From Colwellia psychrerythraea (GTDB taxonomy: Bacteria; Pseudomonadota; Gammaproteobacteria; Enterobacterales; Alteromonadaceae), in the NCBI GenBank assembly GCA_002163005.1, contig MAAF01000120.1, positions 1-64,000 on the forward strand: a stretch of DNA of 64,000 nt, given 5' to 3'. The notes under the pieces were generated by a model. That model was given only the letters and a program-made list of their open reading frames with translations. It searched no databases and was not told the origin of the DNA. This document shows, in pieces, positions 12,866 to 36,915 of the stretch (positions are counted from its first letter, which is position 1; each line of letters opens with the position of its first letter). The translations under genes were made by a program, and so were the position numbers.

Positions 12866-13285
12866 CGAGTTGACCAGACAATCGCTGCTTTATCGTTGTA
12901 TTTCAAACTTCGGTTTGATGTAGACAGATAAGGGGGAGGAAAGTCCGGGCTCCAATGAGCAGGGTGCCAGGTAACGCCTGGGCGGCGTGAGCCGACGACA
13001 AGTGCAGCAGAGAGAAGACCGCCGATGACCGCTTGCGGAACAGGTAAGGCTGAAAGGGTGCGGTAAGAGCGCACCGGATTGCTGGTAACAGTAATTGCAG
13101 GGTAAACTCCACCTGGAGCAAGACCAAATAGGGTTTCATGATTATTAAAACGCAAGTTTCGATAATATAAGCGTGGCTCGCGTGGAAACCGGGTAGGTTG
13201 CTTGAGCTATAGAGCGATTTATAGCCTAGACGAATGATTGTCATCTCCTTAGGGAGCTACAAAACCCGGCTTATGTGGTCAACTC
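12866..13285 (+). ncRNA. rnpB: RNase P RNA (bacterial class A)
   Basis: GAGGAAAGTCCGGGCTCC, AGGGTGCCAGGTAACGCCTGGG, GTGCAGCAGAGAGAAGACCGCCGATGACC, GGTAAGGCTGAAAGGGTGCGGTAAGAGCGCACCGG, TAAACTCCACCTGGAGCAAGACCAAATAGG, AACCCGGCTTATGTGGTC; 5' gagttgacca pairs with 3' tggtcaactc (P1). Confidence 0.96.
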
Positions 13286-13540
13286 AACTAATTTAGTAAC
13301 CGCTTGATCTATTTGTAATAGTTCAAGCGGTATTCTAAAATCCTTTCAAATCAAATCGTTACACTCAATAAATGGTACACGGTTAGGTACACGGCCTAGA
13401 GTTTCACTCTCTTAAATTTAGTCATCATTTTTATCCCCAACTTTCAAATAATCACGTTCAAAGCTTCTCTACGGAATTGATTTAGGCTCAACGTCTTGCC
13501 TGATAAACTTTCACTCAATTTTAATTTTTCAAAAATAGCA
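13264..13540 (+). repeat. att copy A: rnpB 3' end plus element left end with replacement hairpin
   Basis: CTTATGTGGTCAACTCAACTAATTTAGTAACCGCTTGATCTATTTGTAATAGTTCAAGCGG...TTAGGCTCAACGTCTTGCCTGATAAACTTT; matches copies at 30392 and 33069. Confidence 0.85.
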
Positions 13541-13607
13541 TCATCAATATTTTACAAAATAGTGGTACACACTTTGGTACGCGGTTGTTAAATATTGGCA
13601 AGCTTGA

Positions 13608-13838
13608 GTGAGCAACGTGCAGGCAGTGTCTGGTTTTAAATATTTATACCTGAGGAAGAGTACTTTTTATGTAAGAGTAAAAGTACCTAAGCGGCTTGGC
13701 GCAAGGGAGATAAAGCTTTGTCTGCGGACTGAAAAGCTATGTGTTGCAGTGATAATTCTAGAAGGGTTATTGCCTCTTGTTTCAAAGCTAAAACAACTTG
13801 TTATTAACCACTACACCATTACCGCGGGAGCGGTTTAG
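13608..13838 (+). pseudogene. N-terminal (arm-binding) remnant of a tyrosine recombinase
   Basis: FKYLYLRKSTFYVRVKVPKRLGAREIKLCLRTEKLCVAVIILEGLLPLVSKLKQLV resembles integrase N-termini; stops without a catalytic domain. Confidence 0.7.
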
Positions 13839-14146
13839 TTCTTTGTGCGCATTAAAGAAGTAAAATTTTTAAGTTTTGAATGTTTGTCGAGGTCAACTGA
13901 ACATCAGTTAGTTGACCTAAGCAAGTCGACAGCGGAATTTAAATAATTGGTATAGCGGACGTTCCCAAAATCGCTTTTTAAGACTCATTTTATGATCAAA
14001 AGAGCAACATACAGCTATAGAATGAAAACAATAGCTATGACGGCTGCAAGCCCATGTCTGTCTGGTTAGATACAACTTATAAATCTGAAGTGTCAGTTCA
14101 AGTTTGAGTAACCACAGATATTTATACACTTTGATTTTAAAGACTG

Positions 14147-14578
14147 TTATTGGCTTTTTGCAGCTTCCATTTTTTGTTCTATAAGTTGTAGCAGTTGTGA
14201 ATTTAACATGACTAGTTCCGACTCCATGGTTTTAGCCTTTTCATTATTACCGCTTCTACGCTCTTGAGCTAATTCTGCTGTTAATTTAGTTATTTTTTCT
14301 TGTAATTCTGCGATTTTTTCATCTAATGTTCTTTGCCCTTCACCTTCGGCCTCATTAACATCCTCTTTGCCCATTATTTTTCTCATGGCTGTTTGATTTG
14401 TATCATCAACGCTTTTTTGACGTGCTTCTTCAGAAATATTGACTTGATCTGATTGAGAGTTTACTGATAGTTTTTTTTCAGCTGATGAAGCTTGGTTTAC
14501 TTCATCTAACTTAGATGCAGAGACAGACTCTTGATAAATAGGAATATTGACCTGCATATTTTCGGTATAAAGTTTCAT
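14147..14578 (-). CDS. Coiled-coil protein, possibly FlxA-like
   Basis: DQVNISEEARQKS...TLDEKIAELQEKITKLTAELAQERRSGNNEKAKTMESELVMLNSQLLQLIEQKM. Confidence 0.6.
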   Translation of the reverse strand: MKLYTENMQVNIPIYQESVSASKLDEVNQASSAEKKLSVNSQSDQVNISEEARQKSVDDTNQTAMRKIMGKEDVNEAEGEGQRTLDEKIAELQEKITKLTAELAQERRSGNNEKAKTMESELVMLNSQLLQLIEQKMEAAKSQ

Positions 14579-15193
14579 CTGATGAATATCCTTTTCTTAA
14601 GCTTTCGTAGTTGTTTTTATAAGTAGTCGCTGTCTATAGTATTATCGGCAGCCATTAGAAATACTGAATATTTTTAGTGTTAACTGACCTTTACCATACC
14701 TCTAAAATTAGCCACACCTTGAGTATAAGTAATATAAACAGCCTATCCGATATACGTAATCCATAGTGTGAACGGAAAAACATCTGCTTATAGCGATGAC
14801 ATCAAACCAAAAATATAATGGTTTCATTTTCGGATATAGCAGACGTTTAGTTTAAAGTATCTATGACTGCTTTGGTGGCTTTGTTCACATTCAGCTTTAA
14901 CGGCTTATTGGCAAAAAGTAATCATCAATACACAGTTGCTTTCATCCATCGAGAACGTCCGCTATAGAGAAACTGCTAGCATAAGGTGGTTGTTCATCCA
15001 TGTCCGTTGTAGATCAAAACATACAAATATTTTCAGTTTAAATTTTCAAATGCTAATGTCTTCAGTGTGTTGCACTGACCGTTTGAAATCACAGCGCTTA
15101 GTTGACATGGCCTAGTGGCGGATCTTAACGACAACTGATCGCTAAAAGAAGACATTAAGTTTAATGCCTGTAACGCAAGTTTAAGCTGTAATT

Positions 15194-15224
15194 CAACATA
15201 GTGATTGCATATACAACTATGTTG
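15194..15224. promoter_or_regulatory. Probable MarR-family operator upstream of the marR-like gene
   Basis: Nested palindrome CAACATAG-tgaTTGCATATACAA-CTATGTTG; its 17-mer ATTGCATATACAACTAT recurs inverted at 15700..15716. Confidence 0.65.
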
Positions 15225-15263
15225 CACTAGTCTTATACATATGTTTTCGCTAGTTTTATACAC

Positions 15264-15686
15264 ATGTTTGAAGAATGCCTGTATTTCAATAGTAACGCTT
15301 TAGCGCGCACGGTAACCCGAGTTTGGACCGAGGCTTATAAACCCTTTGGTTTGTCACCGCCTCATGCCTTTATGCTGCGAGTCGTTCTTGCCAATCCAGG
15401 TATCATGCCACGCGAATTAGCCAAAGAGCTTAGTCATTCCCGTTCAACAATCACTCGCTTTCTCGACAGTTTAGAAAAACGTAATTTATTGGTACGAAAA
15501 ATGACAACGCTGGATGGAAGAGAAGTTCAAGTTTATCCTGCAAAAGATGCTATAGACATTCACGATAAACTTGATCAAACCGGCAAAAACTTAACTAAGT
15601 TAATGGGAGAAATTATTGGACAAGATGATCTTTCTATAACTATTTCTAACCTGAGGAAAATGCAACATATCTTAGAAAGTAATTAA
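15264..15686 (+). CDS. MarR family transcriptional regulator
   Basis: wHTH: LANPGIMPRELAKELSHSRSTITRFLDSLEKRNLLVRKMTTLDGREVQVYPAKDA. Confidence 0.9.
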   Translation: MFEECLYFNSNALARTVTRVWTEAYKPFGLSPPHAFMLRVVLANPGIMPRELAKELSHSRSTITRFLDSLEKRNLLVRKMTTLDGREVQVYPAKDAIDIHDKLDQTGKNLTKLMGEIIGQDDLSITISNLRKMQHILESN

Positions 15687-15699
15687 TTTTTTTACCTTA

Positions 15700-15716
15700 A
15701 TAGTTGTATATGCAAT
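15700..15716. promoter_or_regulatory. Second copy of the MarR operator, before the tautomerase gene
   Basis: ATAGTTGTATATGCAAT is the exact reverse complement of 15204..15220. Confidence 0.65.
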
Positions 15717-15750
15717 TACTTTTATTTCATTAAATACATAGGAGAACAAA

Positions 15751-16146
15751 ATGCCATACATAAACATACGTCTTGGCGATGCCTTGAGTAACGCACAAAA
15801 AGATCAACTTTACCAAAAAACAACCCTTTTCATGAATACAATTATGGGAAAACGCCGTGAAGTTACGGTGGTACATATTCAGGAGTCAAAGTCGTATCAA
15901 TGGGCAACTAATGGCTTAACCCTAACAGATGAGGATCCAGTTGGTGTATTCGTTGATATAAAGGTTACAGAAAGAACTAACACGCCCGAAGAAAAAGCCG
16001 AAATGATTTCTCAGACTGTAAAAATGCTGGAAGATGTAGTTGGCACTATACAGGAGGCCTGCTATGTAATTATTGATGATATCCCTGCAAACTCATGGGG
16101 ATATAATGGAAAAACTCAGTCAGCACGCGCTAGTTCGACATTATAA
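15751..16146 (+). CDS. Tautomerase (4-oxalocrotonate tautomerase / MIF-like) family protein
   Basis: MPYINIRLGDALSNAQKDQLYQKTT with Pro2; ...EACYVIIDDIPANSWGYNGK. Confidence 0.85.
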   Translation: MPYINIRLGDALSNAQKDQLYQKTTLFMNTIMGKRREVTVVHIQESKSYQWATNGLTLTDEDPVGVFVDIKVTERTNTPEEKAEMISQTVKMLEDVVGTIQEACYVIIDDIPANSWGYNGKTQSARASSTL

Positions 16147-16867
16147 ATGCAAAATAACAACTTCAAACGGAACAAGAATTTTATTCCGTTTGATGTGAGC
16201 GTTATTGATACTAAATCTAATCAAAATCATTGATTGGTGCACCTTCGCTAACGACCGCATTGTCGAGTCAGTAGGGGTTAGATAAGGAAAAGGTAACGTC
16301 AGCTATTGTATCAACAGTGACCAAAAAACGCCTACAACATTGACCTTTGCTAACGACCGTTTTGTGGCAGCTAGTGACCTTAGAACAATGAACACTGGTA
16401 GTTTTGCCCTCATCAAAAGCTAACGTCAAAAAGTGCGCTAAGGCGACATGAAAATTTGAATATGCCAGAAAAATTTACAGTCAACTATGTGATCCTAAAG
16501 CAGTCACCTTGAATCACACTCCCCAGTAACAGAAGCTGGTACTTTGAGTAGAAAGCGGACATCGATGTTTTGTGAAACCATGATGATATTCAGGTAACAC
16601 TAACCGAAATTTACTGCTCGTTTGTGGGGCAAGTTTATGCTCATTGCTACCTGTGGCATACCATCTTAGAGCGCTAACTTTTTTCACTAAGAAGGCATTA
16701 CTAGTTACTTATTTAGTGATGAATAACATGTCAGCTTTTCAAGCAAAGTGAATATCTACATCACAATGTTTTTCACATTGATTCATAAAAAAAATATTGT
16801 TCGAAATTTAATCATAAAGAATACGGTCTGCTACTTATCTACTATATAAATGTTTTAGGAGCTCACT

Positions 16868-19324
16868 ATGAAATATTTAGTATTAGGCACATATAAACCC
16901 CATATAAAAGAAATTGTTACTAACGCATTCTATTTTCTTGTTTTTTTCTTTTTACTTATACCAACCAGCTTTGCTACAGATGTATCAACAAGCTTTGAAA
17001 CCACTAATATTAGTGGTTCATTTACATTGGGCACTTCACCGAAAACAGTTACTTTTACCAATGGGGAAGCTAAATTTGCAGGTATTGCTTCTTTGTACCA
17101 TAGCGGTTCGCAAGCTTTTATGGTTCAAAACGACACCACGACAATAACCTTTGAAACAGCTGCCGCCTCGATCAATGTTTTTCTTAAAGCACAGTCAGGT
17201 GCTGTTGGGGCGGAAGTGAATATCTATGATATTAATGAAAATTTAGTTGATAGCTACAGTGCAACAACATCATGGCAAGAAATAGCGATTGTATCTACTG
17301 TTGGCATAACTCGTATGGAATTAGTAAACATGACTTCAGTCTATGCTGTATTTGATGACTTTAGTTTTACGGCAATGACAGAAGCACCTCCTTCAGAAGA
17401 CCCCGTTAAGTTAACAAATCCGCTAACGTTACCCATTTTTAGTGGTGGCCTAAAACTAAAATTAGAATTGTTATCACAAGGTTTAACAGCGCCATTATGG
17501 GGAGTAGCTGCACCAACAATCACTGAGTATATGTATATTATTGATCAAATTGGCATTATTTGGTCAATTGAACTAACTACCGGTAATAAAGTGGTTGTTG
17601 CTGACTTATCATCTTTGCTCGTTGATATTGGTATTCCTGAATTTGGTGGCTTTGATGAGCGAGGATTATTGGGTATTGCCTTTCACCCACAATTTGCCAG
17701 TAACAATAAGCTTTATACTTATAGTTCACAACCTAATGAAACAGCTGATTTTACCACGATGCCTGACGGATTCACGGCAAATCATCAAGGAGTATTAACT
17801 GAATGGCAAGCAACAATAGGCGGAAGTGCTGGTATCATTTTTGATGTAAATTCAGCGCGTGAAATATTGAGGATAGATGAACCGCAATTTAACCATAATG
17901 GTGGGGCTATCTCTTTTGATACAAATGATCTGCTATATGTTGCCATAGGTGATGGTGGAGGGGCTGACGATATGGATGGTCAAATATTTATTGATCAAGC
18001 TATGGTTGGGCACGGTGAGACGGGAAATGGCCAAAATAAGGATAATATTTTAGGTACTATTATTCGTATCGACCCTTTAGGTAATAATAGTGCTAATGGT
18101 CGTTACGGTATCCCTGCTTCAAATCCCTTTGTTGACCAAGTAGGGCTTGATGAAATCTTTTCCTATGGTTTACGTAACCCTTACAGGCTTTCATTTGACC
18201 AACAAACAGGTATTTTATATGCCGCCGATGTCGGACAAAATGATATTGAAGAAGTAAACATTATCACTTCTGGCGCCAATTATGGTTGGAACATTAGAGA
18301 AGGCAGTTTTGGTTTCTTTGCCAATGGCAACGAAGATGGTTATGTTTATCAACAATTAGATAGCATGAATACAGTAGATCCAATAATTGAATATGATCAT
18401 GATGAAGGTGTAGCCATTATTGGCGGCTTTGTTTATCGAGGGGCAACTTATAATGAAATGCAAGGCAACTACGTCTTCGGAGATTACAGCGGTCGATTAT
18501 TTTATATTAATAACGAAGGTACAATGTCTGAATTTCAAGATGCTGATGAGCTAAACGTAGGAGCTGTGCTTGGTTTCGCACAAGATAGCCAAGGAGAGTT
18601 ATACGTTCTAGCCAATACAAATGGAGTTCCTTCAGGTACAAGTGGTAACGTCTATAAAATATCACTTTTACCCAACAATTCACCCACAGCTGATGCAGGA
18701 GAAGATCAAACGGTGAATGAAGCCACGCAAGTTACCTTAAATGCATCGCTAAGTAATGATCCCGATGGTGATACAATTAATTTTGAATGGCTGCAAAGTT
18801 CAGGCACTTCAGTATCATTAAATGATAATACCAGTGCAACACCAAGTTTCACTGCTCCGAGCGTAAATTCAACCACCACATTAACGTTTAAAGTTGCCGT
18901 GAACGATGGTCATCTTTTTACAACTAGTGAAGTGACAATTACGGTAAATGATGTACCTGCCCCCCAACCTCCTGTATCTAATACTTCGTCTGGCTGTTTT
19001 ATTGCAACAGCTGCGTTTGGTAGTTATTTAGCTCCTGAGGTTAAAGTCTTACGAGAATTTCGAGATCAATACTTAATAACTAATAAAGTAGGGAGGTATT
19101 TAGTTAATGGGTATTACAGGTATTCTCCACCTATTGCTCATTACATAGCGGATAAAGCTTGGCTGAAGCACATAATAAGAGGATTTCTCTGGCCTGTTAT
19201 TTACGGCCTTAAATACCCATTTATAGCACTTTTTACATTAATTTTGATGTTCTCTGCCATATTGAAATATATGAAAAAGCAAAGAATTAGAAAATGTACC
19301 CTCTTACTTCCAAAAAATACATAA
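16868..19324 (+). CDS. Secreted/anchored PQQ-dependent sugar dehydrogenase-like (glucose/sorbosone dehydrogenase) protein with PKD/cadherin-like domain and CFI-box C-terminal region
   Basis: [105 protein letters not shown]; terminal [28 protein letters not shown] then TM helix and basic tail. Confidence 0.9.
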
Positions 19325-19446
19325 ATATTGTTGATGAATAAGGTAAATTATCAAAATTGTCATTGTAGTGGTTAAATAATTCTGGCCACCAATTTATAGT
19401 TCTATTTCGTTAAGGGTGGCGTTAGCGCCATAGAATATATATCCTA

Positions 19447-19476
19447 ATGTCAGCTATCCCTGAAGATAGCTGACAT
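19447..19476. other. Perfect 12-bp inverted repeat hairpin
   Basis: ATGTCAGCTATC-cctgaa-GATAGCTGACAT between the sugar dehydrogenase and the recombinase remnant; no T-run in either obvious terminator orientation. Confidence 0.6.
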
Positions 19477-19538
19477 AAAAAAGGAGTTTATTGCTCTAAT
19501 AATTTTGACCGCTTTGTGGTAAAAGTTAGCGTTAACCA

Positions 19539-20012
19539 TTAGCTTTCAGCTAACGCTTTGTAAACTGTCGCTCTAGCACAGCCAAGGGTTTTGGCGATCT
19601 GTAATTTATTTAGTCCTTCGTCATACTTTTCTCTGATCTTATCTCGTAGAACCTCATTCACAGGTTTGCCTTTGTAAATACCTTTCTCTTTGGCAATGGC
19701 TATACCTTCGCGTTGACGTTCTAGGGTCATGGCACGCTCAAATTGGTAAATACCACCAAGCAGAGTCAGCATCAGTTGTTGCATAGGGCTATTATCTCCA
19801 TTGAACTCAAGATGTTCTTTATGGAAATGAAGGCTAATGCTTTGCTCTGTGAATTCTTTAACCAACCGCAGTAAATCCTCGGTGTTACGTGCCATTTTGC
19901 TAATGTCATGTACATGAACAATATCTCCTTCGCGGGCATATTCAATTAGCTGTTTTAGCTGTGGACGATTTGTATTTTTCCCACTGCATTTTTGTACCGT
20001 GTGTTTTGGGTC
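19539..20012 (-). pseudogene. 5'-truncated serine recombinase (resolvase/invertase)
   Basis: Frame reads DPKHTVQKCSGKNTNRPQLKQLIEYAREGDIVHVHDISKMARNTEDLLRLVKEFTEQ...GGIYQFERAMTLERQREGIAIAKEKGIYKG...KIREKYDEGLNKLQIAKTLGCARATVYKAL; the catalytic-Ser N-terminus is missing beyond a stop at 20013..20015. Confidence 0.85.
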
Positions 20013-20254
20013 TTAGAACTCCACACTAACTGGCTATTTAGCTAGCCTCAAGACTTGAAATAGACACTATTAGGCAACGAGAAATACGGCTGTTTTGACT
20101 ACACTTAAAATGTACACTGATAATCTAACCAGTAACATTTTATTATCCATTTTTGAGAAGTAATTGAGATTATTAATACTTCGTTTTTGAATTTAGTTAA
20201 ATCTCGCTGAATCCGTAGATTTACAGCGTGCTTAAAATGCACACCGATGATCTA

Positions 20255-21760
20255 TTAAATAACAAACATTCCCATAAATTCATTAACTGGCATTGCTTCC
20301 AACTTCGCTTTGTCAGTACATATGTTATAAATTGATTCTACTCGGTTTACTGGGAAACGGGTAGCAAGGTTCATTTTAAACTTAGCTTCAAGTATTGGAA
20401 TCGCTTCTGTGCGACGATTACGGTGACCAAGTGGATATTCCACAACAATATGTTCTGTGCTGCTGCCATCTTTAAAAAATATTTGTATGCCGTTGGTTAT
20501 TGAGCGTTTCTCAGGATCGTGATATTCAGCAGTCCATGTTTTATTTTCTGTCACTTGCATTTTACTACGTAATTCATCAATTATTGGGTTAGCAGCATGG
20601 AATGAATCGCCATACTGCTCAGCAACTAAATTACCAAAGATAAGTGGTATCGCAACTATATATTGTAAACAGTGATCTCTATCTGCTGGGTTGGCTAAGT
20701 CTCCAACCTTAGAGATAATGCGAATCGAAGATTCATGTGTTTTTAATTCAATCTTATCAATATCATCCAGACGATTTTTAACTTTATCGTGTAATCTGAC
20801 CGCAGCTTCACATGCAGTTTGAGCATGGAATTCTGCCGGGAAAGAAATCTTAAATAAGATATTCTTCATAACGTATTCGCCGTATGGACGTTGGAATTTA
20901 AATAGTCGTTCTGCTGGCTTTTTAAGCTTTAAATCAGTATTTCTCTGACTGAAAGAGACATCGTAGAAGCCCCATTGTGGTGTGGTTAATACACCTGGAA
21001 TACCCATTTCGCCTCGCATCACCATATTGGCCAACTGCACCGCGCGAGAGGTCGCATCACCTGCGGCCCAGGCCTTACGTGAACCTGTATTTGGTGCATG
21101 GCGATATGTACGTAATGATGAACCATCGACCCATGAATGAGAAATCGCAGCCATGATCTGCTCACGATCACCACCCATCATTTTAGTAACGACGGCAATT
21201 GTAGCTAAACGTACTAATAAAACATGACATAAACCGACACGGTTAAAGCTATTTTCAAGTGCCATGACACCTTGAATTTCATAAGCCAAGACCATGTTTT
21301 CTAATATAGAATACATAGTTAACGGCTCAAAACCATCAGATAAGCGGACCTGGGAAATATGATCGGCAACGGCTAAAATTCCTCCCAAATTATCAGAAGG
21401 GTGACCCCACTCAGCGGCTAGCCAGGTATCATTAAAGTCTAACCAACGGATAATACAGCCAATATCCCAGGCCGCTTTAACCGGATCCAAACAGAACTGA
21501 GTACCTGGTACATGAACCCCATTTGGTACTATAGTACCTTCAACAATCGGTCCTAATAGTTTTGTGCATTCAGGAAAGCGAAGTGCTAATAAACCACAAC
21601 CCAAGGAATCAATTAAGCAGTGACGTGCAGTATCAATCGCTTCAATACTTTTAACTTTGTAAGTTAAAACATAATCAGCAATATCTTGAATTTCCTGATC
21701 ATATTCAGGGCGGTTACTTAATTCAGTATTAGTTGATTCAACATTGGTACTCATAGTCAT
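20255..21760 (-). CDS. MmgE/PrpD family protein, 2-methylcitrate dehydratase-like
   Basis: [29 protein letters not shown]...[33 protein letters not shown]...[35 protein letters not shown]. Confidence 0.9.
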
Positions 21761-22024
21761 TCTCTTTAAATAACTTTAATAATAATTTCAGCTATTTCGG
21801 TCTTATCGATAAAATATTCCTAAGCAGGGTTTTATTAGTATAGATTAGTTACTTTCAAAATTTATCTAGTAAACGCGGAGGTTTTATCGGAATGAAAAAA
21901 TAGCCGTGGCTAAATTTTACCTTCTGTTACTCATCCTGATTGCCAGCTAGCTTTTTCTGATAAAAGGTCAAATATGTCTCATATTTTTAAAGTAGGACTA
22001 TAATAGTACTATATTGGAGGCGTT

Positions 22025-22462
22025 ATGTTACGTGTGAACAAGTTAACAGATTATGGTTCGGTGATCTTGGTCTATTTAGCTCGCTATCCTGGCGAAAAAA
22101 TAAGTGCGGTAAGTTTGGCAAAAGCCGTTTTTTTACCTCCCGCCACGGTTAGCAATTTATTAAAAAAAATGGTTAATAACGAATTATTATGCTCAACTCT
22201 TGGAAAACATGGGGGGTACCAACTTGCCAGACCCGCAGAACAAATATCCTTAGCAGAAATTATTACTGCATTGGAAGGACCTATAGCCTTGACCGAGTGC
22301 AATGTAAAAAAAGGGCTATGCCGTACTGAAGAACATTGCGACATACGAAATAACTGGCGGAATATTAATCAAATGGTTTACCAAAGTTTGACACAGGTGA
22401 GTTTGAAACAGATGTTACCGCCTGAAAATAGTGCCATCAAACCAATAACCTTGATTGGCTAA
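22025..22462 (+). CDS. Rrf2-family SUF regulator
   Basis: MLRVNKLTDYGSVILVYLA...HGGYQLARPAEQISLAEIITALEGPIALTEC..GLCRTEEHC (three cluster-ligand Cys); directly upstream of sufB. Confidence 0.9.
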   Translation: MLRVNKLTDYGSVILVYLARYPGEKISAVSLAKAVFLPPATVSNLLKKMVNNELLCSTLGKHGGYQLARPAEQISLAEIITALEGPIALTECNVKKGLCRTEEHCDIRNNWRNINQMVYQSLTQVSLKQMLPPENSAIKPITLIG

Positions 22463-22495
22463 TGGTGCAAGTTTACCTGAAAGGTGGGATAAACT

Positions 22496-23944
22496 ATGAC
22501 AACACAAGCAAAAAATCTGGAGCGCTTCGTCGGTGGCGAATACCCTCATGGTTTTGTTACCGAGCTAGCAACCGATAGCTTGCCTCCTGGATTAAGTGAG
22601 TCGGTGATACGGCAAATTTCGGCCAAAAAAAATGAACCAGAGTTTATGTTGCAATGGCGTCTTCAGGCCTACCGTCATTGGCTAACACTTGATGTGCCGA
22701 CATGGTCAAAGGTGCATTACCCGCCCATTAATTACGACGATATTATTTACTACAGTGCCCCCAAAAGTGCGAGCAGTGGTCCCCAAAGTCTAGATGATGT
22801 TGCTCCTGAAATTCTACAGACTTATGAAAAGTTGGGTATTCCTCTGCATGAACGGGCACAATTAGCTGGTGTAGCCGTTGACGCAGTGTTCGATAGCGTC
22901 TCTGTCGCCACCACCTTTAAAGAAAAATTGGCCGATGTTGGCGTGATTTTTTGTTCATTTTCCGAGGCTGTGCAAAAACACCCTGAGCTGGTACAGCAAT
23001 ACTTGGGCTCAGTAGTACCTTTCACTGATAATTTTTATGCGGCGCTTAATGCTGCGGTATTTAGCGATGGCTCTTTTTGTTATGTACCCAAGGGGACTCG
23101 CTGTCCGATGGAGTTATCCACTTACTTTCGTATTAACTCGCTTAACACTGGTCAGTTCGAGCGAACCCTGATCATCGTCGAAGACAATAGCTATGTCAGT
23201 TACCTTGAAGGTTGCACTGCACCAATGCGGGATGAGCATCAATTACATGCCGCGGTGGTCGAGTTGATTGCGCTGAACAACGCTGAAATAAAGTATGCGA
23301 CCGTGCAAAATTGGTATCCCGGTGATAAGGAAGGCAAGGGTGGAATTTATAATTTTGTTACCAAGCGCGGTTTATGTCAGGGAAATTACAGCAAGATATC
23401 CTGGACTCAGGTAGAAACGGGCTCTGCCATTACCTGGAAATACCCTAGTGTTATTTTAAAGGGGGATAATTCCATTGGTGAGTTTTATTCCGTTGCCTTA
23501 ACCAATAATTATCAACAAGCTGATACTGGCACAAAGATGACGCATATTGGCAAAAATACTACCAGCACCATTATTTCTAAAGGGATCTCTGCAGGTCATG
23601 GCTCTAACGCCTACCGTGGCTTAGTGTCTGTTGGCCAAAATGCCAGTAACGCCAAGAATTATAGCCAATGTGACTCCTTGCTGCTGGGGGCACATTGCTC
23701 TGCCCATACGTTCCCTTATATTGAGGTTAGACATCCTTCGGCCAAAATTGAACATGAGGCAACTACGTCAAAAATAAGTGACGAACAACTCTTCTACTGT
23801 TTGCAACGCGGCATAACAGCGGAAAATGCGGTTTCGATGATCATCAATGGCTTTTGCAAAGACATCTTTCGTAAATTACCAATGGAATTCGCTGTTGAAG
23901 CGCAGGCATTGATGGAAGTTAGTTTAGAAGGATGTACAGGGTGA
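22496..23944 (+). CDS. sufB: Fe-S cluster assembly protein SufB
   Basis: [18 protein letters not shown]...[67 protein letters not shown]. Confidence 0.96.
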
Positions 23945-27529: not shown

Positions 27530-27554
27530 AACAGCGGGCATTATTCTCAAATAC

Positions 27555-28031
27555 ATGGAGCAAAGTGGCATGAACGAGGAGTTACGAGCGTTATACCAGG
27601 AAGTCATTATAGATCACGGCAGACACCCGAGGAACTTTAAAAAACTCGAGGAGCCCAGCTGTTGTCAAGAGGGATACAACCCGTTATGTGGCGATCGTTT
27701 AACGCTTTATTTAAAAGTAGACCATAACAAAATTATCGATGCCAGCTTTGAAGGGGTTGGTTGCGCCATTTCTATGGCCTCCACCTCATTGATGATAGAA
27801 AGGATCAAAAACATTCCGATAATCGAAGCACAACAGCTGTTTGAAGCTTTTCATTTGTTGGTCACTGAACCAAGCCCAACAGTTAAAACCTTGGAGTATT
27901 TGGGCAAACTTACGGTGTTAGGTGGAGTGAGAGATTTTCCTACCAGAATCAAGTGCGCTACCCTAGGTTGGCACGCGCTCAAGGCAGGGCTAGACAATGC
28001 CGCTTCTGAACAGCGGGTGTCTACAGAGTGA
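27555..28031 (+). CDS. sufU: SufU-type (NifU/IscU-like) scaffold protein
   Basis: YQEVIIDHGRHPRN, NPLCGDRL, GVGCAISMASTSLMIE, RIKCATLGWHAL. Confidence 0.92.
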   Translation: MEQSGMNEELRALYQEVIIDHGRHPRNFKKLEEPSCCQEGYNPLCGDRLTLYLKVDHNKIIDASFEGVGCAISMASTSLMIERIKNIPIIEAQQLFEAFHLLVTEPSPTVKTLEYLGKLTVLGGVRDFPTRIKCATLGWHALKAGLDNAASEQRVSTE

Positions 28032-28037
28032 CTGAAC

Positions 28038-28592
28038 ATGATGCAATTTTTTGAACATGTGACGGTATTACGAGACTGCGACGCCATAGCCATACCGGCG
28101 GGAATAGCTGTAATCTTAAATAAGGACAGGGAAGTTGTGATCACACAGGCACTAGGGGGCAGCTATACGGTCAATGATGATGGACAACTACTGCGTATTG
28201 CCAGTAAAGATGCTGATGCTTTGGGTAAAGATGATGTCGTAGAAAAAGAATCAGACTTGGACCTCGGTGAAGGGGATGGCGTTAACTTGGTGCGTATATA
28301 TGACCAACTTAGGACCTGTTATGATCCAGAAATCCCGATTAATATTGTTGAGCTTGGCTTGATTTATGACATTAATTGCTTTGAATTGCTAAACGGCCGA
28401 CATCACGTCCGCATTACGATGACACTGACCTCAGCCGGGTGTGGTATGGGAACCATTTTGGCTGAAGAAATACGGGAGAAGTGCCTTTGCGTGTCTAATG
28501 TTGACGCGATAGAGGTTATTCTAGTCTACGATCCACCCTGGAGTAGAGACATGGTATCTGAAGCGGCTAAACTGCAGCTTGGTTTATTGTAA
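28038..28592 (+). CDS. sufT: SufT, DUF59/MIP18-type Fe-S assembly protein
   Basis: VTVLRDCDAIAIPAG...VVITQALGGSYTVNDDGQLLRIASKDADALG; DUF59-like CYDPEIPINIVELGLIYDI. Confidence 0.92.
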   Translation: MMQFFEHVTVLRDCDAIAIPAGIAVILNKDREVVITQALGGSYTVNDDGQLLRIASKDADALGKDDVVEKESDLDLGEGDGVNLVRIYDQLRTCYDPEIPINIVELGLIYDINCFELLNGRHHVRITMTLTSAGCGMGTILAEEIREKCLCVSNVDAIEVILVYDPPWSRDMVSEAAKLQLGLL

Positions 28593-28594
28593 TC

Positions 28595-28933
28595 TTGCTA
28601 AGGAGCAATGAAATGTCAAAATGGATCGAAGTTTTTCCGGCCAGTGACTTAAAGCCGGGCATGAGTACTCGGGTTGATTTGGTAGGGGTAGAATTGCTTC
28701 TGGTTAATATTAATGGGGAGCTTTTCGCAATAGAGAATGTCTGCAGCCATGATGGTGGCGAATTAAGTGATGGGGAAATTAATGGCAATGAAATCACCTG
28801 TCCACGTCATTTCGCACGCTTTAATTTAAAAACAGGGGCGGTATTGTGCCCCCCAGCCTTTGAAGATATTAACACTTATGCGGTTAGAATTTTTGAAGGT
28901 ATTGTGCAAGTGTCAGATGAAGCAAATAAGTAG
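28595..28933 (+). CDS. Rieske-type [2Fe-2S] ferredoxin
   Basis: NVCSHDGGELSDGEINGNEITCPRHFARFNLKTG (CxH...CxxH). Confidence 0.9.
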   Translation: MLRSNEMSKWIEVFPASDLKPGMSTRVDLVGVELLLVNINGELFAIENVCSHDGGELSDGEINGNEITCPRHFARFNLKTGAVLCPPAFEDINTYAVRIFEGIVQVSDEANK

Positions 28934-29133
28934 TGAAAGCAAACTACAGTGTTGTACATGATAATATTTTTAATTCAATAAAGAGACATTAAATTATTTA
29001 AGTGAATTAATAGCATATGAACTATTATCTAAATGGTGAGCTGTACTTTTTAGTTTAACGTTTAAAGAAAAATCTGAACATACAGGAATCAACCTAAATT
29101 GATCATTATTATAAATCAAATAGAGGCTAAATT

Positions 29134-29766
29134 ATGGAATTCATGGATTTAATAAATATGTTGGCTCGTTGGGGGCATTTATTATTCGGTATGACCTGGA
29201 TTGGACTTTTATACTATTTCAACTTTATCCAAGGCGGCTACTTTAAATCGGCAACACCGGAAGGATTGGCAGATGGTAAAGCCAAGTTGGCACCCGCTGC
29301 ACTTTGGTGGTTCAGGTGGGGGGCAATGTTTACCTTTTTAACCGGACTGGTGCTGTTAGTAAGTGTTCATCATCTGAAAGTGATGAATGATTATATCATC
29401 GTCGGTGCGACAATGGGCACCTTAATGTTCTTAAATGTGTGGTTAATTATTTGGCCAAACCAAAAAATTGCGCTCGGCATGGTCGAAGGTGATGCCGCAA
29501 CAGCGGGGGCCAAAGCTTTATTGGCATCTCGAACTAATACGTTATTTTCTGCGCCGATGGCATTTTTTATGTTGGCGGGACCTCATTACGCCGGTTATGG
29601 CATGGGAGTTGGCTCCATGGCAATGTGGATTACCCTGGCAATTGTTGGTGTACTTGAAGTCAATGCAGTGGTTGGAAAGCAAGGCCCAATGACGACGGTT
29701 CGTGGTGTTATTGTTAGTAGCTTAGTATTAACGCTGATTATTGTTGGGATTCTTGCATTTATGTAG
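29134..29766 (+). CDS. Multi-TM protein of the urate hydroxylase PuuD N-terminal-like family
   Basis: RWGHLLFGMTWIGLLYYFNFIQGGYF...LWWFRWGAMFTFLTGLVLL; no C-terminal cytochrome c domain. Confidence 0.65.
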   Translation: MEFMDLINMLARWGHLLFGMTWIGLLYYFNFIQGGYFKSATPEGLADGKAKLAPAALWWFRWGAMFTFLTGLVLLVSVHHLKVMNDYIIVGATMGTLMFLNVWLIIWPNQKIALGMVEGDAATAGAKALLASRTNTLFSAPMAFFMLAGPHYAGYGMGVGSMAMWITLAIVGVLEVNAVVGKQGPMTTVRGVIVSSLVLTLIIVGILAFM

Positions 29767-29923
29767 GCGTGATCCTTTAATATTCACTAGTTGTATCGTG
29801 ATGAAAAGTATAGAAAAAATTTTTTAACTAACTTGTCGGCCGGGTTCTTTATAAATAAAGTATTAATAAATATCAATGTGTTAATTTAGTTTTTGAGTTG
29901 GCTCAGCGGCCAACTCATAACCA

Positions 29924-30232
29924 CTAAATACAGCCTCGTTTTTTATACTCGACTTCCCACTCTTTAAGTTCCTGAGCTAGCCCTTTATGCTTCAGGGCTA
30001 TTTTATCAGGCGATTGCTGCTTTTTCTTTTTAGGTTTCGAAGTTGTAATATCAACTCCTGACAGTTCCTGGGTAAACATTTTGGGCACAACATGGCTGTA
30101 ATGTTGCTCAATCATTTGAACACTAGTACCAGATTGTTTAGCTAATATTTCCATGCTTACTTCACCTGTCATTAGCTGCCACGTAATATAGCTGTGGCGT
30201 AATGAGTATAATGTTCTGACGCCATGCGGAGA
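29924..30232 (-). pseudogene. C-terminal catalytic remnant of a tyrosine recombinase
   Basis: Reverse-strand reading ...SPHGVRTLYSLRHSYITWQLMTGEVSMEILAKQSGTSVQMIEQHYSHVVPKMF contains LRHSYIT box and HYSHV with catalytic Tyr; upstream part broken. Confidence 0.85.
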
Positions 30233-30391
30233 GTTCTTTAAATCTATTTATACTAAAGCTTTATCAAAAGCTTTACCTAGCTCGTTAGTAGTAGAACCGT
30301 CGGCTAATTTAAATAGTTTGTCACTTGGCTTACGGCTGGTTGATGACTTAATTTAATTAAATCAGTTGGTTATGTTGTTTGTTTGAACTGA

Positions 30392-30640
30392 CTTATGTGG
30401 TCAACTCGACTATTTTAGTAACAGCTTGATCTATTTATAATAGTTCAAGCTGAATTATAAACCTCTTTAAAATCAAATTATTACACTCAATAAATGGTAC
30501 GCGGTTAGGTACACGGTACTGATTTTTAGCTCCTCGCTTTACTCTCAAATTTTCTACTCATATTTCTCTTAGGAATACATTTAGGCTCAACTTCTTGCCT
30601 GTTAAACTTTTCTTTCAGATTTAAATTTATTGAAGATACT
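30392..30640 (+). repeat. att copy B: rnpB 3' end fragment plus element left end
   Basis: CTTATGTGGTCAACTCGACTATTTTAGTAACAGCTTGATCTATTTATAATAGTTCAAGCTG...CACTCAATAAATGGTACGCGGTTAGGTACACGG...TTAGGCTCAACTTCTTGCCTGTTAAACTTT. Confidence 0.85.
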
Positions 30641-30755
30641 CACGTTACGGGGCACATAACGAGATAGTAGTAGTCACCTAATTAGAAATAAACAGCTAAT
30701 ATTAGCCATAATTAGTCGAACGTCCTTGTTCAGTATTACCACAAAACCTAACGCT

Positions 30756-32696
30756 CTAGGATTTGTTATGGGAAATCATAAATCCATCAAAAAATTCAGT
30801 TAACTCTTTGTGAGCAGTGAGGGGTAATATATTAGCAATGTGTTGATCAGGTCGTACTACAACCATGCACCCCATTGATCGGTCTATGTTTCTCAACTCA
30901 AAAATGTCGTTATTTTCTTCAGCATGAAATACTTTTTCGTAGTCTCTTAACCCATATTTTCCTTTGGCTGGCCATAAAAAGTCAGGCATATCTTCAATTG
31001 ATAGGTCTTGTTGCTGAAATACTGCGTAGACATCAAATACTGAATCTATGTCTGCACCTTCTGGAGTATACTTTCGCACAGGAGAAGTATCAGAATTTGC
31101 TAAAAACTGTATAAGATCGTATGAATAGGAAGTGGCTTCCGTAGGGTTTTGTTCATTGCCAAAAACAAAAATTCGCCAGCGACCGTCCGCTTTATTCAAA
31201 TGTCCTAAATGTTGTCGGTCACCATCGGCTACTCGAATAGCCTCGGCTGAATGGAATCGTTGACCAATCTTAAAGCCACTAGCTAAATGTTGATTTTCGG
31301 CACCAGTACAGATATATGACGGGTAATACTCGATAGCTGTGCCAGCAACAAAGCCATTTTGCCTCGCCATGAATTTCTCAATATCAGCAGTATTAGTTTT
31401 AGCCTCAGGTGCATCTTTGTCTGATGTTGGCCGAGTAGCGACTAATTTTGACAATTCTCTATCTGCCTCTATTAACTGAAACGCAACTTTGCGTCGCTCT
31501 GAGGAGTATGTCTGTAGTAGTTTTGGCTTACATTTACCTTGTAAAACAGCAGCGACTTTCCAGCCCAGATTAAAGGTGTCTGGCAGTGATGTGTTTAACC
31601 CCCAGCCTCCTTTAGGGCTATGTGTATGGCAGGCATCACCAGCAACAAACGCGCGGGGAATAAGGTTTTCTGGGTTATCAACAGGAGTGTCATCAAATCT
31701 TTCTGCTATTCGTTGTCCAACCTCATAGATTGACCACCATGCAACTTCTTTAACATCTAATTTATAAGGATGCATAATTTGCTGTGCTTTTGCTATGACA
31801 TCTTCAGCCTTAAGATTAAGATCTGACGCGCGTTGACCTTTACCTAATAGACCAAGCTCTATATAAAACCTAACTAAATAACCGCCTTCTCGCGGAATAG
31901 TCATTACAGCACCGTGTTCTTTTGATTGGATAAAGCTTTTAACTCTAATATCAGGAAAGTCTGTCACTAACAAGAGATCCATGACCCCCCAAGCTTTGTT
32001 TGCTGAATCACCTTCTAAAGCTATTGATAGGCCTTTGCGAACAGCACTTCTTGCGCCATCACAACCGACAACGTAACGAGCTCGAATTATTTCATTTTTT
32101 GGTGATTGAGAGCCATCGTTTATTTCGAATTTTGCAGTAATAGGATGAGCGTTTAAATCCTGCGTTAGGTTAGCATCAACATCTAATTCAAGTAACCGAC
32201 GACTGTAATGGGGAACAAGATGCGTGACTGAGTTTTTCATGCCTTCTAATAATAATTCATGAAGTCGTGCTTGGTTAACAATGCCATGTGCAAATTCAGA
32301 CAGACCAATTCTCGCATCAGGAATTTTATGTGTACGCTTTATGTTCTCAGGCTTTATGCTATCAGGCTCCCAGAACGTATTCTGGTTTAGACGGTAAGCT
32401 TCTTTAACAACAAATTCACTGCTGTTAAACCCTTCCATAATCTCCATTGTACGGCAAGATATTCCATCAGCTCGTCCAAAAATCAAAGGACCAGTTTCTA
32501 GATCAACGATACACGTTGTAATGTCTGTGAACTCCGACAATTGCCTTGCCATCGCTAACCCAGCAGGCCCACAACCGACAATTAATACATCCACTTCCTT
32601 TGGAAGGTCTAAAATAGGTAGAGTAGGGGCAGGCTCCCGAACTGAATCTGGAGTTTGGTAGTTACCGGGTTTAAAACCATTTAAGTGGTACTGCAT
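30756..32696 (-). CDS. FAD-dependent aromatic monooxygenase, phenol 2-monooxygenase / 3-hydroxybenzoate 4-monooxygenase-like
   Basis: VDVLIVGCGPAGLAMARQLSEF; GCDGARSAVRKGLSI; AFVAGDACHTHSPKGGWGLNTSLPDTFNLGWKVAAVLQGK; C-terminal thioredoxin-like region. Confidence 0.9.
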   Translation of the reverse strand: MQYHLNGFKPGNYQTPDSVREPAPTLPILDLPKEVDVLIVGCGPAGLAMARQLSEFTDITTCIVDLETGPLIFGRADGISCRTMEIMEGFNSSEFVVKEAYRLNQNTFWEPDSIKPENIKRTHKIPDARIGLSEFAHGIVNQARLHELLLEGMKNSVTHLVPHYSRRLLELDVDANLTQDLNAHPITAKFEINDGSQSPKNEIIRARYVVGCDGARSAVRKGLSIALEGDSANKAWGVMDLLLVTDFPDIRVKSFIQSKEHGAVMTIPREGGYLVRFYIELGLLGKGQRASDLNLKAEDVIAKAQQIMHPYKLDVKEVAWWSIYEVGQRIAERFDDTPVDNPENLIPRAFVAGDACHTHSPKGGWGLNTSLPDTFNLGWKVAAVLQGKCKPKLLQTYSSERRKVAFQLIEADRELSKLVATRPTSDKDAPEAKTNTADIEKFMARQNGFVAGTAIEYYPSYICTGAENQHLASGFKIGQRFHSAEAIRVADGDRQHLGHLNKADGRWRIFVFGNEQNPTEATSYSYDLIQFLANSDTSPVRKYTPEGADIDSVFDVYAVFQQQDLSIEDMPDFLWPAKGKYGLRDYEKVFHAEENNDIFELRNIDRSMGCMVVVRPDQHIANILPLTAHKELTEFFDGFMISHNKS

Positions 32697-33068
32697 TTTA
32701 TAGCTCTCCTAATTTATTAATAAGAATGTGTTTTAGCTTTTTTGTTCTGTTTTTAATTTTACACTGGATAAGCTTAACGCGTTAATTAATTATAAAGGGC
32801 GTTAATTTTTTGGAAAGGTAATTTTCATGGTTTTAATGGTATCTTTCATAGATGGATTGTTGTCAAAGGTAAAATGGAAATCATAATGAATTGTTATCTA
32901 TTTCTATATACTACCTCGCGTCTATATAAAGGGGTCAAGGAAGCGGGATTAGGTTGTCGTGGTATGGTTAATTTGTCTGCTTAATTTGAGTTGTTTGGGC
33001 TGGAATTAAGAGGGGGCAGGTAAGGAATTGCAATTAAAACAAAAGTTTAGTTCTTTCTGTTGAGTTGA

Positions 33069-33315
33069 CTTATGTGGTCAATTCAACTAATTTAGTACCG
33101 CTTGATCTATTTGTAATAGTTCAAGCGGCATTCTAAAATCCTTTCAAATCAAATTATTACATTAAAAAAGATTATGTGCGTTTATTCATGCAGCACTGAT
33201 TTATGTACTCATCAATCTTATCTAAAATTTACACTTCATATTTCTGTTCAGAATACACTTAGGCTCAACTTTTACCCGATAAACTTTTAACTCAGCATCA
33301 ATTTCAATTATTTTA
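33069..33315 (+). repeat. att copy C: rnpB 3' end fragment plus element left end
   Basis: CTTATGTGGTCAATTCAACTAATTTAGTACCGCTTGATCTATTTGTAATAGTTCAAGCGGCATTCTAAAATCCTTTCAAATCAAAT...CTTAGGCTCAACTTTTACCCGATAAACTTTT. Confidence 0.85.
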
Positions 33316-33348
33316 AGTTAACGTATCTGGTAGGGGGAGATATTTGCT

Positions 33349-34179
33349 CTATTCAATTAATGTTAAAGGATCAACAGTTAGTCCTTTAGGTAATGCTTTG
33401 AGTGCAGTAATAAACAGGTTAAATAGTTCTGGTTGGGAGTTAATATCTAGTTTTTTGTATAGATTTTTTCTATGGTACTTGATAGTTTCTACTGCATTTT
33501 CTAGCTTTTCCGCAATGGATTTCACTGAATATCCCTGTAAGGTTAGATGTAATACCTCACATTCTTTTTTAGTCAGCACCGAGCTGCCAAATTGCTTTAA
33601 AGCTTCATCAAGTTGCCAGCTAAGTTGACCTGTTTTGCGGCTGTTATTTGCTAGGTACCAGTTAGTTAATATTGCTTGTACTACGGCAAAGACGATTTCG
33701 AGTATAAATATTTCTTGAGCAGAAAATTGAACCTTCCCTCCTAACCTAGCGAGGGAAATACTAAAAATCACATCACACTCAGGCCTGATAATTAGACAAA
33801 TTTCATCTTGTATATCGAGTTGTGAGTAAAATCGGCGATAATATTCTGATTCAGTAAAGCCGCTTGGAGCTACCTGCTTTAAAGTAAATACCCCCGTCTT
33901 CTTTAGATCATATGCAAGGCGATAAAAAGGATCTAACAAATAAGCGCCACTTGAATAACTACTTATCTGTAATTGCTTACTTTCAGACGCCAATAACCTC
34001 TGATGAGTGATCTCAGGTTTTTCTCCAGTTACATATTTAGTGACAAGGCCACTTGAGGCATCGACTAAGTTCTCCAACGCATATAACAACACAGTCAAGC
34101 CATTGGCTTGATCTGTACTATGTAATACTTTGGCTAGATTTTGGTGCCATTTATTCCAGTCTACAGACGATTTTTTCAT
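33349..34179 (-). CDS. LuxR-family HTH transcriptional regulator
   Basis: LTKKECEVLHLTLQGYSVKSIAEKLENAVETIKYHRKNLYKKLDINSQPELFNLF. Confidence 0.9.
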   Translation of the reverse strand: MKKSSVDWNKWHQNLAKVLHSTDQANGLTVLLYALENLVDASSGLVTKYVTGEKPEITHQRLLASESKQLQISSYSSGAYLLDPFYRLAYDLKKTGVFTLKQVAPSGFTESEYYRRFYSQLDIQDEICLIIRPECDVIFSISLARLGGKVQFSAQEIFILEIVFAVVQAILTNWYLANNSRKTGQLSWQLDEALKQFGSSVLTKKECEVLHLTLQGYSVKSIAEKLENAVETIKYHRKNLYKKLDINSQPELFNLFITALKALPKGLTVDPLTLIE

Positions 34180-34289
34180 CAGTATAGTGTTCCTTTAATT
34201 CACACTAAATACGATCCCAATTTAAGGGGATCTACAAATGAGTAACTTAGTGAAATACTGCCATAACTAATACAGAAGAGGAATAACTA

Positions 34290-35246
34290 ATGACTAGACC
34301 AACTGATTTTGCCATTACCAGAGAAGAACTATTAGGAACCGAAATTGAACCGACCTTTTCCGGCGTGCTAAGTTTTTTACGACGAAAGTACAGTAAAGAC
34401 TTAACTCACGCAGAAGTTGCGGTAACTGGCATTCCATACGACTTAGCTCTTAGTAACCGTTCAGGTGCCAGATTAGGTCCACGAGCCATTAGAGCAGCAT
34501 CGAGCAACTTAGCTTGGGGTACAGTTGCTCATTGGGGAATAGACCCATTCGAAACTTTACCTGTTGTCGATTATGGTGATTGTGGCATTGATACAAGTAT
34601 GCCCGAGCAAGTTCCAAAGGACATTGAACAGCACATTAGTCATATTCTTGAACAAAATTGCGCAACCTTATGCTTAGGAGGCGATCACTTTATTAGCTAT
34701 CCCATTTTAAAAGCCTATGCGAAAAAATTTGGCGGAGAAATATCCCTCATCCATTTTGATGCACATTATGACACTTGGAATGACACCAAAGGTAAGATTG
34801 ACCACGGCACCATGTTTTATCACGCAGCTAAACAAGGCATTATTTCACCGGAACGTTCGGTACAAATTGGAATGCGAACAGCTATCGATGACACGATTGG
34901 GTTTAATGTTATTGACAATCACGCGGTACACAGTCAGCAGCCAGAACAAATAGCCGAACAAATTAAAAAGATTGTTGGCAATAACCCATGTTATCTAACA
35001 TTTGATATCGATTGCCTTGATCCTGTTTATGCCCCTGGTACTGGTACACCTGTCGTTGGTGGATTGAGTACCTATCAGGCGCAACGCATCTTACGCGGTC
35101 TGGAGGGTATTAACTTGATAGGTATGGATCTGGTTGAAGTGTCCCCAGCTTATGACCATGCAGAAATAACGTCACTCGCTGCCGCTTCTTTAGCACTCGA
35201 TCTGTTGTGTTTATATGCATCGGCTAGTCACCAGAAAACAAAATAA
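34290..35246 (+). CDS. Agmatinase / ureohydrolase family protein
   Basis: GIPYDLALSNRSGARLGPRAIR; LGGDHFISYP; IHFDAHYDTWND; FDIDCLDPVYAPGTGTPVVGGLS. Confidence 0.92.
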   Translation: MTRPTDFAITREELLGTEIEPTFSGVLSFLRRKYSKDLTHAEVAVTGIPYDLALSNRSGARLGPRAIRAASSNLAWGTVAHWGIDPFETLPVVDYGDCGIDTSMPEQVPKDIEQHISHILEQNCATLCLGGDHFISYPILKAYAKKFGGEISLIHFDAHYDTWNDTKGKIDHGTMFYHAAKQGIISPERSVQIGMRTAIDDTIGFNVIDNHAVHSQQPEQIAEQIKKIVGNNPCYLTFDIDCLDPVYAPGTGTPVVGGLSTYQAQRILRGLEGINLIGMDLVEVSPAYDHAEITSLAAASLALDLLCLYASASHQKTK

Positions 35247-35287
35247 ATGCATAACTTCTTATATAACTATAACGATAATAATTAGGA

Positions 35288-36664
35288 ATGAACTGTATGA
35301 CACAATTAAAAAAAGTTGAAAATATGTTTGGCTACAAAGACATGATTTTCTATTGTATTTCCGCCATTTTATTAGTTGAACAAATTGCTATGTCTGCGTC
35401 TGTAGGCCCTTATGCAGTATTTTGGTGGCTAATTACAATAGTCTTTTTCATGTTACCAAACACTATGGTGACGTCAGAGCTTGGAGCTACTTACCCAGAA
35501 CAAGGCGGTATTTATGCTTGGGTTAGAGACGCCTTTGGCGCACGCTGGGGAGCCCGTATCACTTGGTTATATTGGGTCAATATAGCCTTGTGGGTTCCTT
35601 CTGTATTTATTATGTTCTCAGGAATGTTATCGGCTTTATTTTTTCCTGATATGACTTTATGGACTCAGATCTCTATAGCCATTTTTCTTTGCTTTTTACT
35701 TGCGATAACAAGCAGTATGCCATTGCATTATACCAAATGGCTATTGCTTGTGGCGACCCCACTAAAGTTCTTGATCATATTGACCATCGGCATAGCTGGG
35801 ATTAACTATGGGCTAACAAATGGCTTTGCTAATGATTTGAGTTTCTCAGCGGCCATGGCCGATTTGTCGAGCGGTTTGGCATATATTCCCGTTATTGTGT
35901 ACGGTTGTTTAGGGCTTGAGCTGATCATGTCAGAAAGTAAAAAAATTATATCCCCAGAGAAGAATATTCCCAAAGCTATGCTTATATCTGGAGCTATTAC
36001 CGCTTTTCTTTATATTTTTGGTACTGTTGGCATATTGGCTGCGGTTCCAGCGGAAGAAGTTGAAATTGTAAGTATTTTTGCGGTCACGCTAAAAGGGTTA
36101 TTTGGGGGAACTCAAACTGGCGATATGCTAGTTTCTGTACTTGGTGTCATGACTTTATTCACGTTCTTTGCATCCATGATCGCTTGGACATTGGGAGGAA
36201 ATGCAGCTATGGCCGAAGCAGGGCAAGAAAAAGAAATGCCAAGCATATTTGGCATATTAACTAAGAAACACGAGATGCCGATAGGCTCTGCGATCATTTT
36301 ATCGTCAACGTGTGCTCTGATGTTAGTTATTTATGGCTTAATGGCGGAAAATGCAGAAGAACTGTATTGGACGTTATTCTCATTCGGAGCAATAATTTTC
36401 TTAATGCCCTATATTGCGATGCACTGCTCTTTTTTAAAATTACGTCAGCGAGACTCAAGTAAATTTCGCCCATTTCGAGTGCCTGGAGGAGAACTATCAG
36501 CAAAGTTAATAGCTGGCTTGTGTATATTGATATTAATAGTTGCCATTTTACTCTTTTTCTGGGTGCCAGGAGAGCCAATTGACTTAAATTATATAGCACA
36601 AGTGAGTATTGGTTTGTTAGTCACATTGCTATTTGGTGAGATGCTGGCACGCAAAAATAAATAA
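35288..36664 (+). CDS. APC-superfamily amino acid/amine permease
   Basis: Multi-TM ELGATYPEQGGIYAWVRDAFGARWGARITWLYWVN...; downstream of agmatinase-like gene. Confidence 0.88.
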   Translation: MNCMTQLKKVENMFGYKDMIFYCISAILLVEQIAMSASVGPYAVFWWLITIVFFMLPNTMVTSELGATYPEQGGIYAWVRDAFGARWGARITWLYWVNIALWVPSVFIMFSGMLSALFFPDMTLWTQISIAIFLCFLLAITSSMPLHYTKWLLLVATPLKFLIILTIGIAGINYGLTNGFANDLSFSAAMADLSSGLAYIPVIVYGCLGLELIMSESKKIISPEKNIPKAMLISGAITAFLYIFGTVGILAAVPAEEVEIVSIFAVTLKGLFGGTQTGDMLVSVLGVMTLFTFFASMIAWTLGGNAAMAEAGQEKEMPSIFGILTKKHEMPIGSAIILSSTCALMLVIYGLMAENAEELYWTLFSFGAIIFLMPYIAMHCSFLKLRQRDSSKFRPFRVPGGELSAKLIAGLCILILIVAILLFFWVPGEPIDLNYIAQVSIGLLVTLLFGEMLARKNK

Positions 36665-36757
36665 AATAGGTTGTCCTTCACGAAGTGCTTATTTTTTAAC
36701 TGTTCGGGTTTATTAAACGAGACTTTGCAGTAACGACAGTAATAGAGACTAATAACT

Positions 36758-36791
36758 AAACCACGGTCTTTAGCTATAAAGAGCGTGGTTT
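36758..36791. terminator. Hairpin downstream of the permease
   Basis: AAACCACGgTCTTTAgctaTAAAGAgCGTGGTTT. Confidence 0.6.
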
Positions 36792-36845
36792 ATAAGTTCT
36801 AATAAAACTTTATTATATCGCGGGATAGTTAGGCTTTATCGTTAA

Positions 36846-36915
36846 TCCGGTTTATGTGGTCAACTCGCTAATTTTGATAAGACCGCTTGTTTTTATATTA
36901 TAAAACAAGCGGTTT
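36846..36915 (+). repeat. att copy D: right boundary of the array, probable original rnpB 3' end and terminator
   Basis: CCGGTTTATGTGGTCAACTCGC then ACCGCTTGTTTTTATATTATAAAACAAGCGGTTTTCT; lacks the element left-end sequence shared by A-C. Confidence 0.8.

Follow-up and report, generated by a model that had tools for sequence, protein, structure and literature searches.

The DNA from 13270 to 36850 is very probably the product of tandem accretion, in which three integrative units, decayed or devoid of an integrase, have piled up at the 3' end of rnpB through a tyrosine integrase family dedicated to that gene. The region lies in a window (the whole stretch of DNA that was analysed) of 64,000 nucleotides from Colwellia psychrerythraea. 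A preliminary description had proposed a three-unit accretion at rnpB from the repeats, and the proposal is now supported by a relative whose site lacks the units, by the units that other relatives carry there, by the linkage of the integrase to rnpB, and by the left ends that the units share. What is new beyond that description is an integrase stub in unit 1, a remnant of a second integrase, inverted half-sites, the atypical character of the last repeat, and the variability of the phoD side.

I propose that the integrase would recombine a circular element, bearing GAGTTGAC-TTATGTG-GTCAACTC, with the last bases of rnpB, CCCGGC-TTATGTG-GTCAACTC. The left end of the element would restore the rnpB end, the 3' strand of its P1 helix included, and would follow it with the element's own hairpin. 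The displaced copy of the rnpB end would mark the far end of the element. The integrase would then decay, and further insertions at the same or a neighbouring core would stack the units.

Four copies of the end of rnpB

The target gene, for RNase P RNA class A, lies at 12866 to 13290 on the plus strand (Rfam RF00010, 310 bits). Its 3' end, CTTATGTGGTCAACTC, recurs in the same orientation at 30392, 33069 and 36851, and YTTATGTGGTCAAYTC has four exact matches on the plus strand of the window, at 13270 and at those three positions. The repeat is 16 bases long, the last bases of the gene, and defines copies A (attL, 13270 to 13285, with a 7-bp core TTATGTG at 13271 to 13277 and the arm GTCAACTC), B (30392 to 30407), C (33069 to 33084) and D (36851 to 36866, with the same core, taken as the terminal attR). 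The units between them, arranged head to tail, measure 17,122, 2,677 and 3,782 bp, which bears out the 17.1, 2.7 and 3.8 kb reported earlier.

It is hardly credible that the repeats arose by chance or by structural similarity at the end of rnpB, within a region of ordinary backbone. Shuffled sequence contains YTTATGTGGTCAAYTC a mean of 0.21 times per shuffle and none of 100 shuffles reaches four, so that chance is rejected as the source of the four same-orientation copies claimed at the outset. One relative has a site without the units (see below), and nothing was found in favor of this view. A dispersed repeat family is rejected as well: in the 4.6-Mb genome the exact core occurs at these four places only, with two one-mismatch matches on other contigs.

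The bases to the left of the core differ from copy to copy: CCCGGC in rnpB, GAACTGAC in B, GAGTTGAC in C, and AATCCGGT in D. Right ends carry an inverted half-site, GAGYTRAC, with 7-8 of 8 positions matching in 11 of 13 internal copies, against a background of about 1% for GAGYTRAC before TTATG. Right-end copies were picked by the core, so the bases leftward of it constitute an independent test. The putative attP would thus be GAGTTGAC-TTATGTG-GTCAACTC and the putative attB CCCGGC-TTATGTG-GTCAACTC, giving the short-overlap core between inverted half-sites that characterizes tyrosine-integrase islands. The exceptions to the pattern GAGYTRAC-TTATGTG-GTCAACTC are D and one copy in genome G036. 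The left half-site of D, AATCCGGT (within 36840 to 36866), is nearer to the CCCGGC of rnpB than to the GAGYTRAC of other right ends, and this counts against accretion. The role of terminal attR assigned to D in the preliminary description is therefore upheld in part: a relative's homology to the right flank starts at the D core, but the half-site is not what a right end should have.

A left-end block of about 240-260 bp is common to copies A, B and C but not to D. Alignments of A with B and of B with C extend over about 260 bp at 75-76% identity, and A matches C at 92% over the first 102 bp, followed by patchier similarity that includes CTTAGGCTCAAC. The common block is thus as previously described. 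The statement that D lacks it mostly holds, but about 90 bp of D resemble the other copies (78%, hairpin included), and D forms a similarly shaped hairpin of its own, ACCGCTTG...CAAGCGGT. The block of unit 1 (13270 to 13527, plus strand), which resembles those of B and C, consists of the 3' end of rnpB, a hairpin, GGTACACGG-type repeats (at 13374 and 13386, and again at 13564 and 13576), and a TTTAGGCTCAAC motif. The same layout (rnpB end, hairpin, GGTACACGG-type repeats, TTTAGG motif) precedes intact integrases in Colwellia, in Pseudoalteromonas and, more loosely, in Shewanella. The plus-strand block of unit 2 (30392 to 30628) has GGTACGCGG at 30496 and GGTACACGG at 30508, and that of unit 3 (33069 to 33290, plus strand) is diverged, without GGTACACGG repeats. 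Judged by this layout, the A, B and C blocks represent the left ends of a family of elements whose tyrosine integrase has about 590 amino acids.

What of the hairpins? The D-type hairpin (36867 to 36931, plus strand) lies directly 3' of rnpB in the relative without units, making it a candidate for the rnpB terminator that preceded insertion. A terminator scan of the hairpins at B, C and D found no consensus terminator, so a terminator function for them I only infer.

The last bases of rnpB also hold the 3' strand of the P1 helix, the partner of GAGTTGACC at the 5' end of the RNA. Where loci are readable, the 5' strand is almost always GAGTTGAC. The 3' strand pairs with it perfectly at 8 of the 25 loci that have an element-type hairpin and at 10 of the 11 that have the second common type (Fisher p = 0.003), a difference that is suggestive only, because the sequences are related and the hairpin classes were drawn by the analyst. 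The pattern would fit elements that bring their own end of rnpB. If part of P1 is swapped at insertion, then these loci offer a natural test of what variation is tolerated at the end of an essential ribozyme.

The site in related genomes

One hundred related genomes were queried with the end of rnpB. Forty-two matched, nearly all of them congeneric, and the regions downstream of rnpB were compared from most of the congeneric matches. A search with a flexible att pattern plus hairpin gave many false matches, so its results were judged by eye.

G038, of the Colwellia group, has the site without the three units. There rnpB is followed at once by the D-type hairpin and the 3' part of a phoD-like gene, and when the rnpB of the window is joined to the sequence past D, the composite aligns to G038 at 92% across the junction (836 columns). 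The 23.6 kb cannot, then, be conserved backbone. Other relatives have other contents at rnpB (G032, G026, G007, G037 and G008). In G032, homology to the right flank of the window starts at the D core, and a different unit, of 5.4 kb, lies between; the unit in G026 is related to that of G032, the one in G007 is not. The comparison of synteny suggested by the preliminary description has accordingly yielded both an empty site and different combinations of units. Further in-register copies are found downstream of rnpB in G037, G008, G025, G014 and G036, so stacking recurs in the group. Direct repeats in the same orientation, a site without the segments, and different combinations in relatives are together the marks of tandem accretion. 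A separate case is G003 (L065:458-590), where rnpB is followed by two att-plus-hairpin copies spaced 113 bp apart, perhaps the scar of an array that has lost nearly all its contents.

The phoD-like gene of G038 is mostly gone, which points to a later change beside the site, and this altered neighborhood counts against the accretion reading. In close relatives the region is followed by the histidine kinase that lies at 43870 to 45216 in the window. Where both genes are on one contig, rnpB and the kinase are separated by 0.4 kb in G038, and in other genomes the interval runs from about 7 kb to over 100 kb, a spread that favors accretion. The phoD-like gene adjoins rnpB in a few genomes only and in some others is on a different contig, so the stretch from phoD to phoA is itself variable. 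It follows that D bounds the three units, but older accessory DNA may extend beyond it. The stretch beside D (37060 to 43785), with phoD, phosphodiesterase and TonB genes, and phoA in some genomes, varies in the group and looks like an older accessory block.

The integrase family and the contents of the units

The integrase associated with rnpB has about 590 amino acids, with DUF3258 and Phage_integrase domains. Of 39 congeneric genomes, 3 have it at full length, in each case directly downstream of rnpB (in one of them the frame contains a TGA), and another 7, among them this genome, keep stubs or fragments of it at rnpB. One scan of GTDB genomes uncovered eight loci, in Colwellia, a MAG labelled Litorilituus, three Pseudoalteromonas, and Shewanella algicola, and in every one of them rnpB lies directly upstream: the integrase begins about 240-345 bp past its end. 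The integrase of this family was found only beside rnpB. Autonomous relatives thus exist in which the family integrase adjoins its target, as in tyrosine-integrase islands. As regards a phage origin, no close relatives of the integrase were found in phage records or viral contigs, and plasmid matches were distant, below 60% identity. Tail-collar-like proteins, recognized by sequence appearance only, occur in the units of two relatives. The intact-integrase elements of relatives also contain defence-like genes (L029:9017-9919 and L037:16039-17256), which PADLOC matches to a CD-NTase-type cyclase, a PDC-S26 candidate and an AAA ATPase resembling IetA.

The only recombinase genes of unit 1 (13270 to 30391, plus strand, 17.1 kb) are incomplete: two tyrosine integrases survive as remnants, and a resolvase is truncated. 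The first remnant is an N-terminal stub of the rnpB-associated integrase, about 76 amino acids long (13608 to 13838, plus strand; match at 13620-13856, E 1.4e-12). The second, at the right end of the unit (29927 to 30346, minus strand), is the C-terminal part of another tyrosine integrase and is interrupted by one stop. It was considered as the C-terminus of the rnpB integrase and rejected as such: it belongs to a separate family of about 430 amino acids, with full-length copies elsewhere. In G008 and G014 similar remnants immediately precede the right att and would suggest an ancestor with two integrases or a chimeric right end. The truncated resolvase, a serine recombinase, is at 19539-19895; relatives of it are found in the G014 element and beside a partial left block in G017.

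The other genes of unit 1 encode a MarR protein, a tautomerase, a GSDH-domain protein, MmgE/PrpD, the suf operon (22025-28933) and a PuuD-like membrane protein, whose gene is also the last ahead of an att copy in G037. SufB is present here alone among the 39 congeneric genomes and absent from the 38 congeners, and the suf DNA has a G+C content of 44-45% vs about 38%; both observations favor accretion.

Unit 2 (30392 to 33068, plus strand, 2.7 kb) has a single gene, of the phenol 2-monooxygenase family (30756-32696, minus strand), and no integrase. It recurs at 90% nucleotide identity in another species, G017, where it stops at the same core, its right boundary being GAGCTGAC-TTATGTA, with the sequences diverging beyond. 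Only part of the left block is present in G017, next to a resolvase gene; the contigs break, hiding any linkage to rnpB. Unit 3 (33069 to 36850, plus strand, 3.8 kb), also free of an integrase, holds a LuxR regulator (minus strand), an agmatinase and an APC amino-acid transporter. These three genes are found at 86% nucleotide identity elsewhere in G026, with no att copies nearby, which would suggest the capture of an existing operon and which weighs against the accretion reading. No remnant of the rnpB-associated integrase was found in either unit, and no recombinase gene among their ORFs of at least 100 amino acids. Since unit 3 also lacks the GGTACACGG repeats, the case for the history of these two as elements is made by their ends. 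Both have kept attL and attR and lack integration and transfer genes, as is expected of CIMEs. No conjugation or mobilization genes were recognized among the annotated ORFs of the window.

An alternative view is that a single large island entered rnpB and was split by deletions and by homologous recombination between repeats, so that the units were never independent. This is what one might think from unit 2 of G017, whose gene is inside a longer stretch, by the resolvase gene and with a partial left block, and from the presence of the unit 3 genes elsewhere without att copies. Deletion within one element would not, however, be expected to produce A, B and C, each of which is a diverged left end of the family (by 8-25%) with its own att core and hairpin, and the independent arrays of G037, G008 and G025 show that stacking recurs. 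I consider the single island improbable, and accretion of separate units the better account.

Compatible with accretion is the idea that units 2 and 3 are non-autonomous and are still moved in trans by any family integrase that comes in. I would not bet on it, but unit 2 has retained the core, both half-sites and two GGTACACGG-like repeats, and a second species has this unit. Against it, the GGTACACGG repeats of unit 3 are lost, and no rnpB-associated integrase beyond the stub was found in this genome, which is 94% complete. With the stub alone, the array is probably immobile now, inert unless an integrase arrives. A broader conjecture, offered tentatively, is that a marine gammaproteobacterial specialist of rnpB may rewrite the 3' strand of P1 at each insertion, leaving a hybrid P1, as cargo units without an integrase circulate at the site through its integrase in trans.

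Comparison with known systems

A family of integrases appears to be devoted to RNase P RNA as a site of insertion, and it has turned up here in at least three marine genera. No paper was found that describes rnpB as an integration target, in a literature search that covered few subscription journals and so does not establish priority; in the literature found, rnpB serves as a phylogenetic marker or a promoter. The arrays expose a site of cargo exchange, where the contents include autonomous elements bearing defence-like genes at one extreme and, at the other, small metabolic units, e.g. an entire suf operon.

Among the closest precedents are the ssrA islands of Dehalococcoides, many of them arrayed in tandem behind a single structural RNA gene (PMC3146451). 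Some have an integration module at their left edge; others have none and were suggested to be perhaps cis-mobilizable (PMC3146451). Like the rnpB array they are bounded by copies of the 3' end of the RNA gene, but their target is tmRNA and their recombinase the serine recombinase DsiB (PMC3146451), in place of RNase P RNA and a tyrosine integrase. In the islands with tyrosine integrases collected by Islander, the element likewise restores the RNA gene and a displaced fragment lies at the far end (PMC4383910). Those targets are tRNA and tmRNA genes (PMC4383910), whereas here it is rnpB, and the element also brings the hairpin after the RNA.

SE and GInt elements are also gammaproteobacterial, with tyrosine recombinases and inverted repeats around a short spacer (PMC10214605). 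They differ in having an intA-tfp-intB operon and a 6-bp spacer, in place of one large integrase near the left end and 7 bp, and in that a site without units exists for the rnpB array (PMC10214605). No intA-tfp-intB-srap operon, the mark of an SE, is found downstream of the integrase in the ORF lists of the relatives. The accretion of CIMEs with ICEs and IMEs is similar in that integration genes are lost, attL and attR are kept, and elements are stacked at one site (PMC5704250). It is dissimilar in that no conjugation or mobilization genes were recognized here or, in a non-exhaustive look, in relatives. The array is one of decayed tandem islands, CIME-like, a kind known at ssrA and at tRNA genes.
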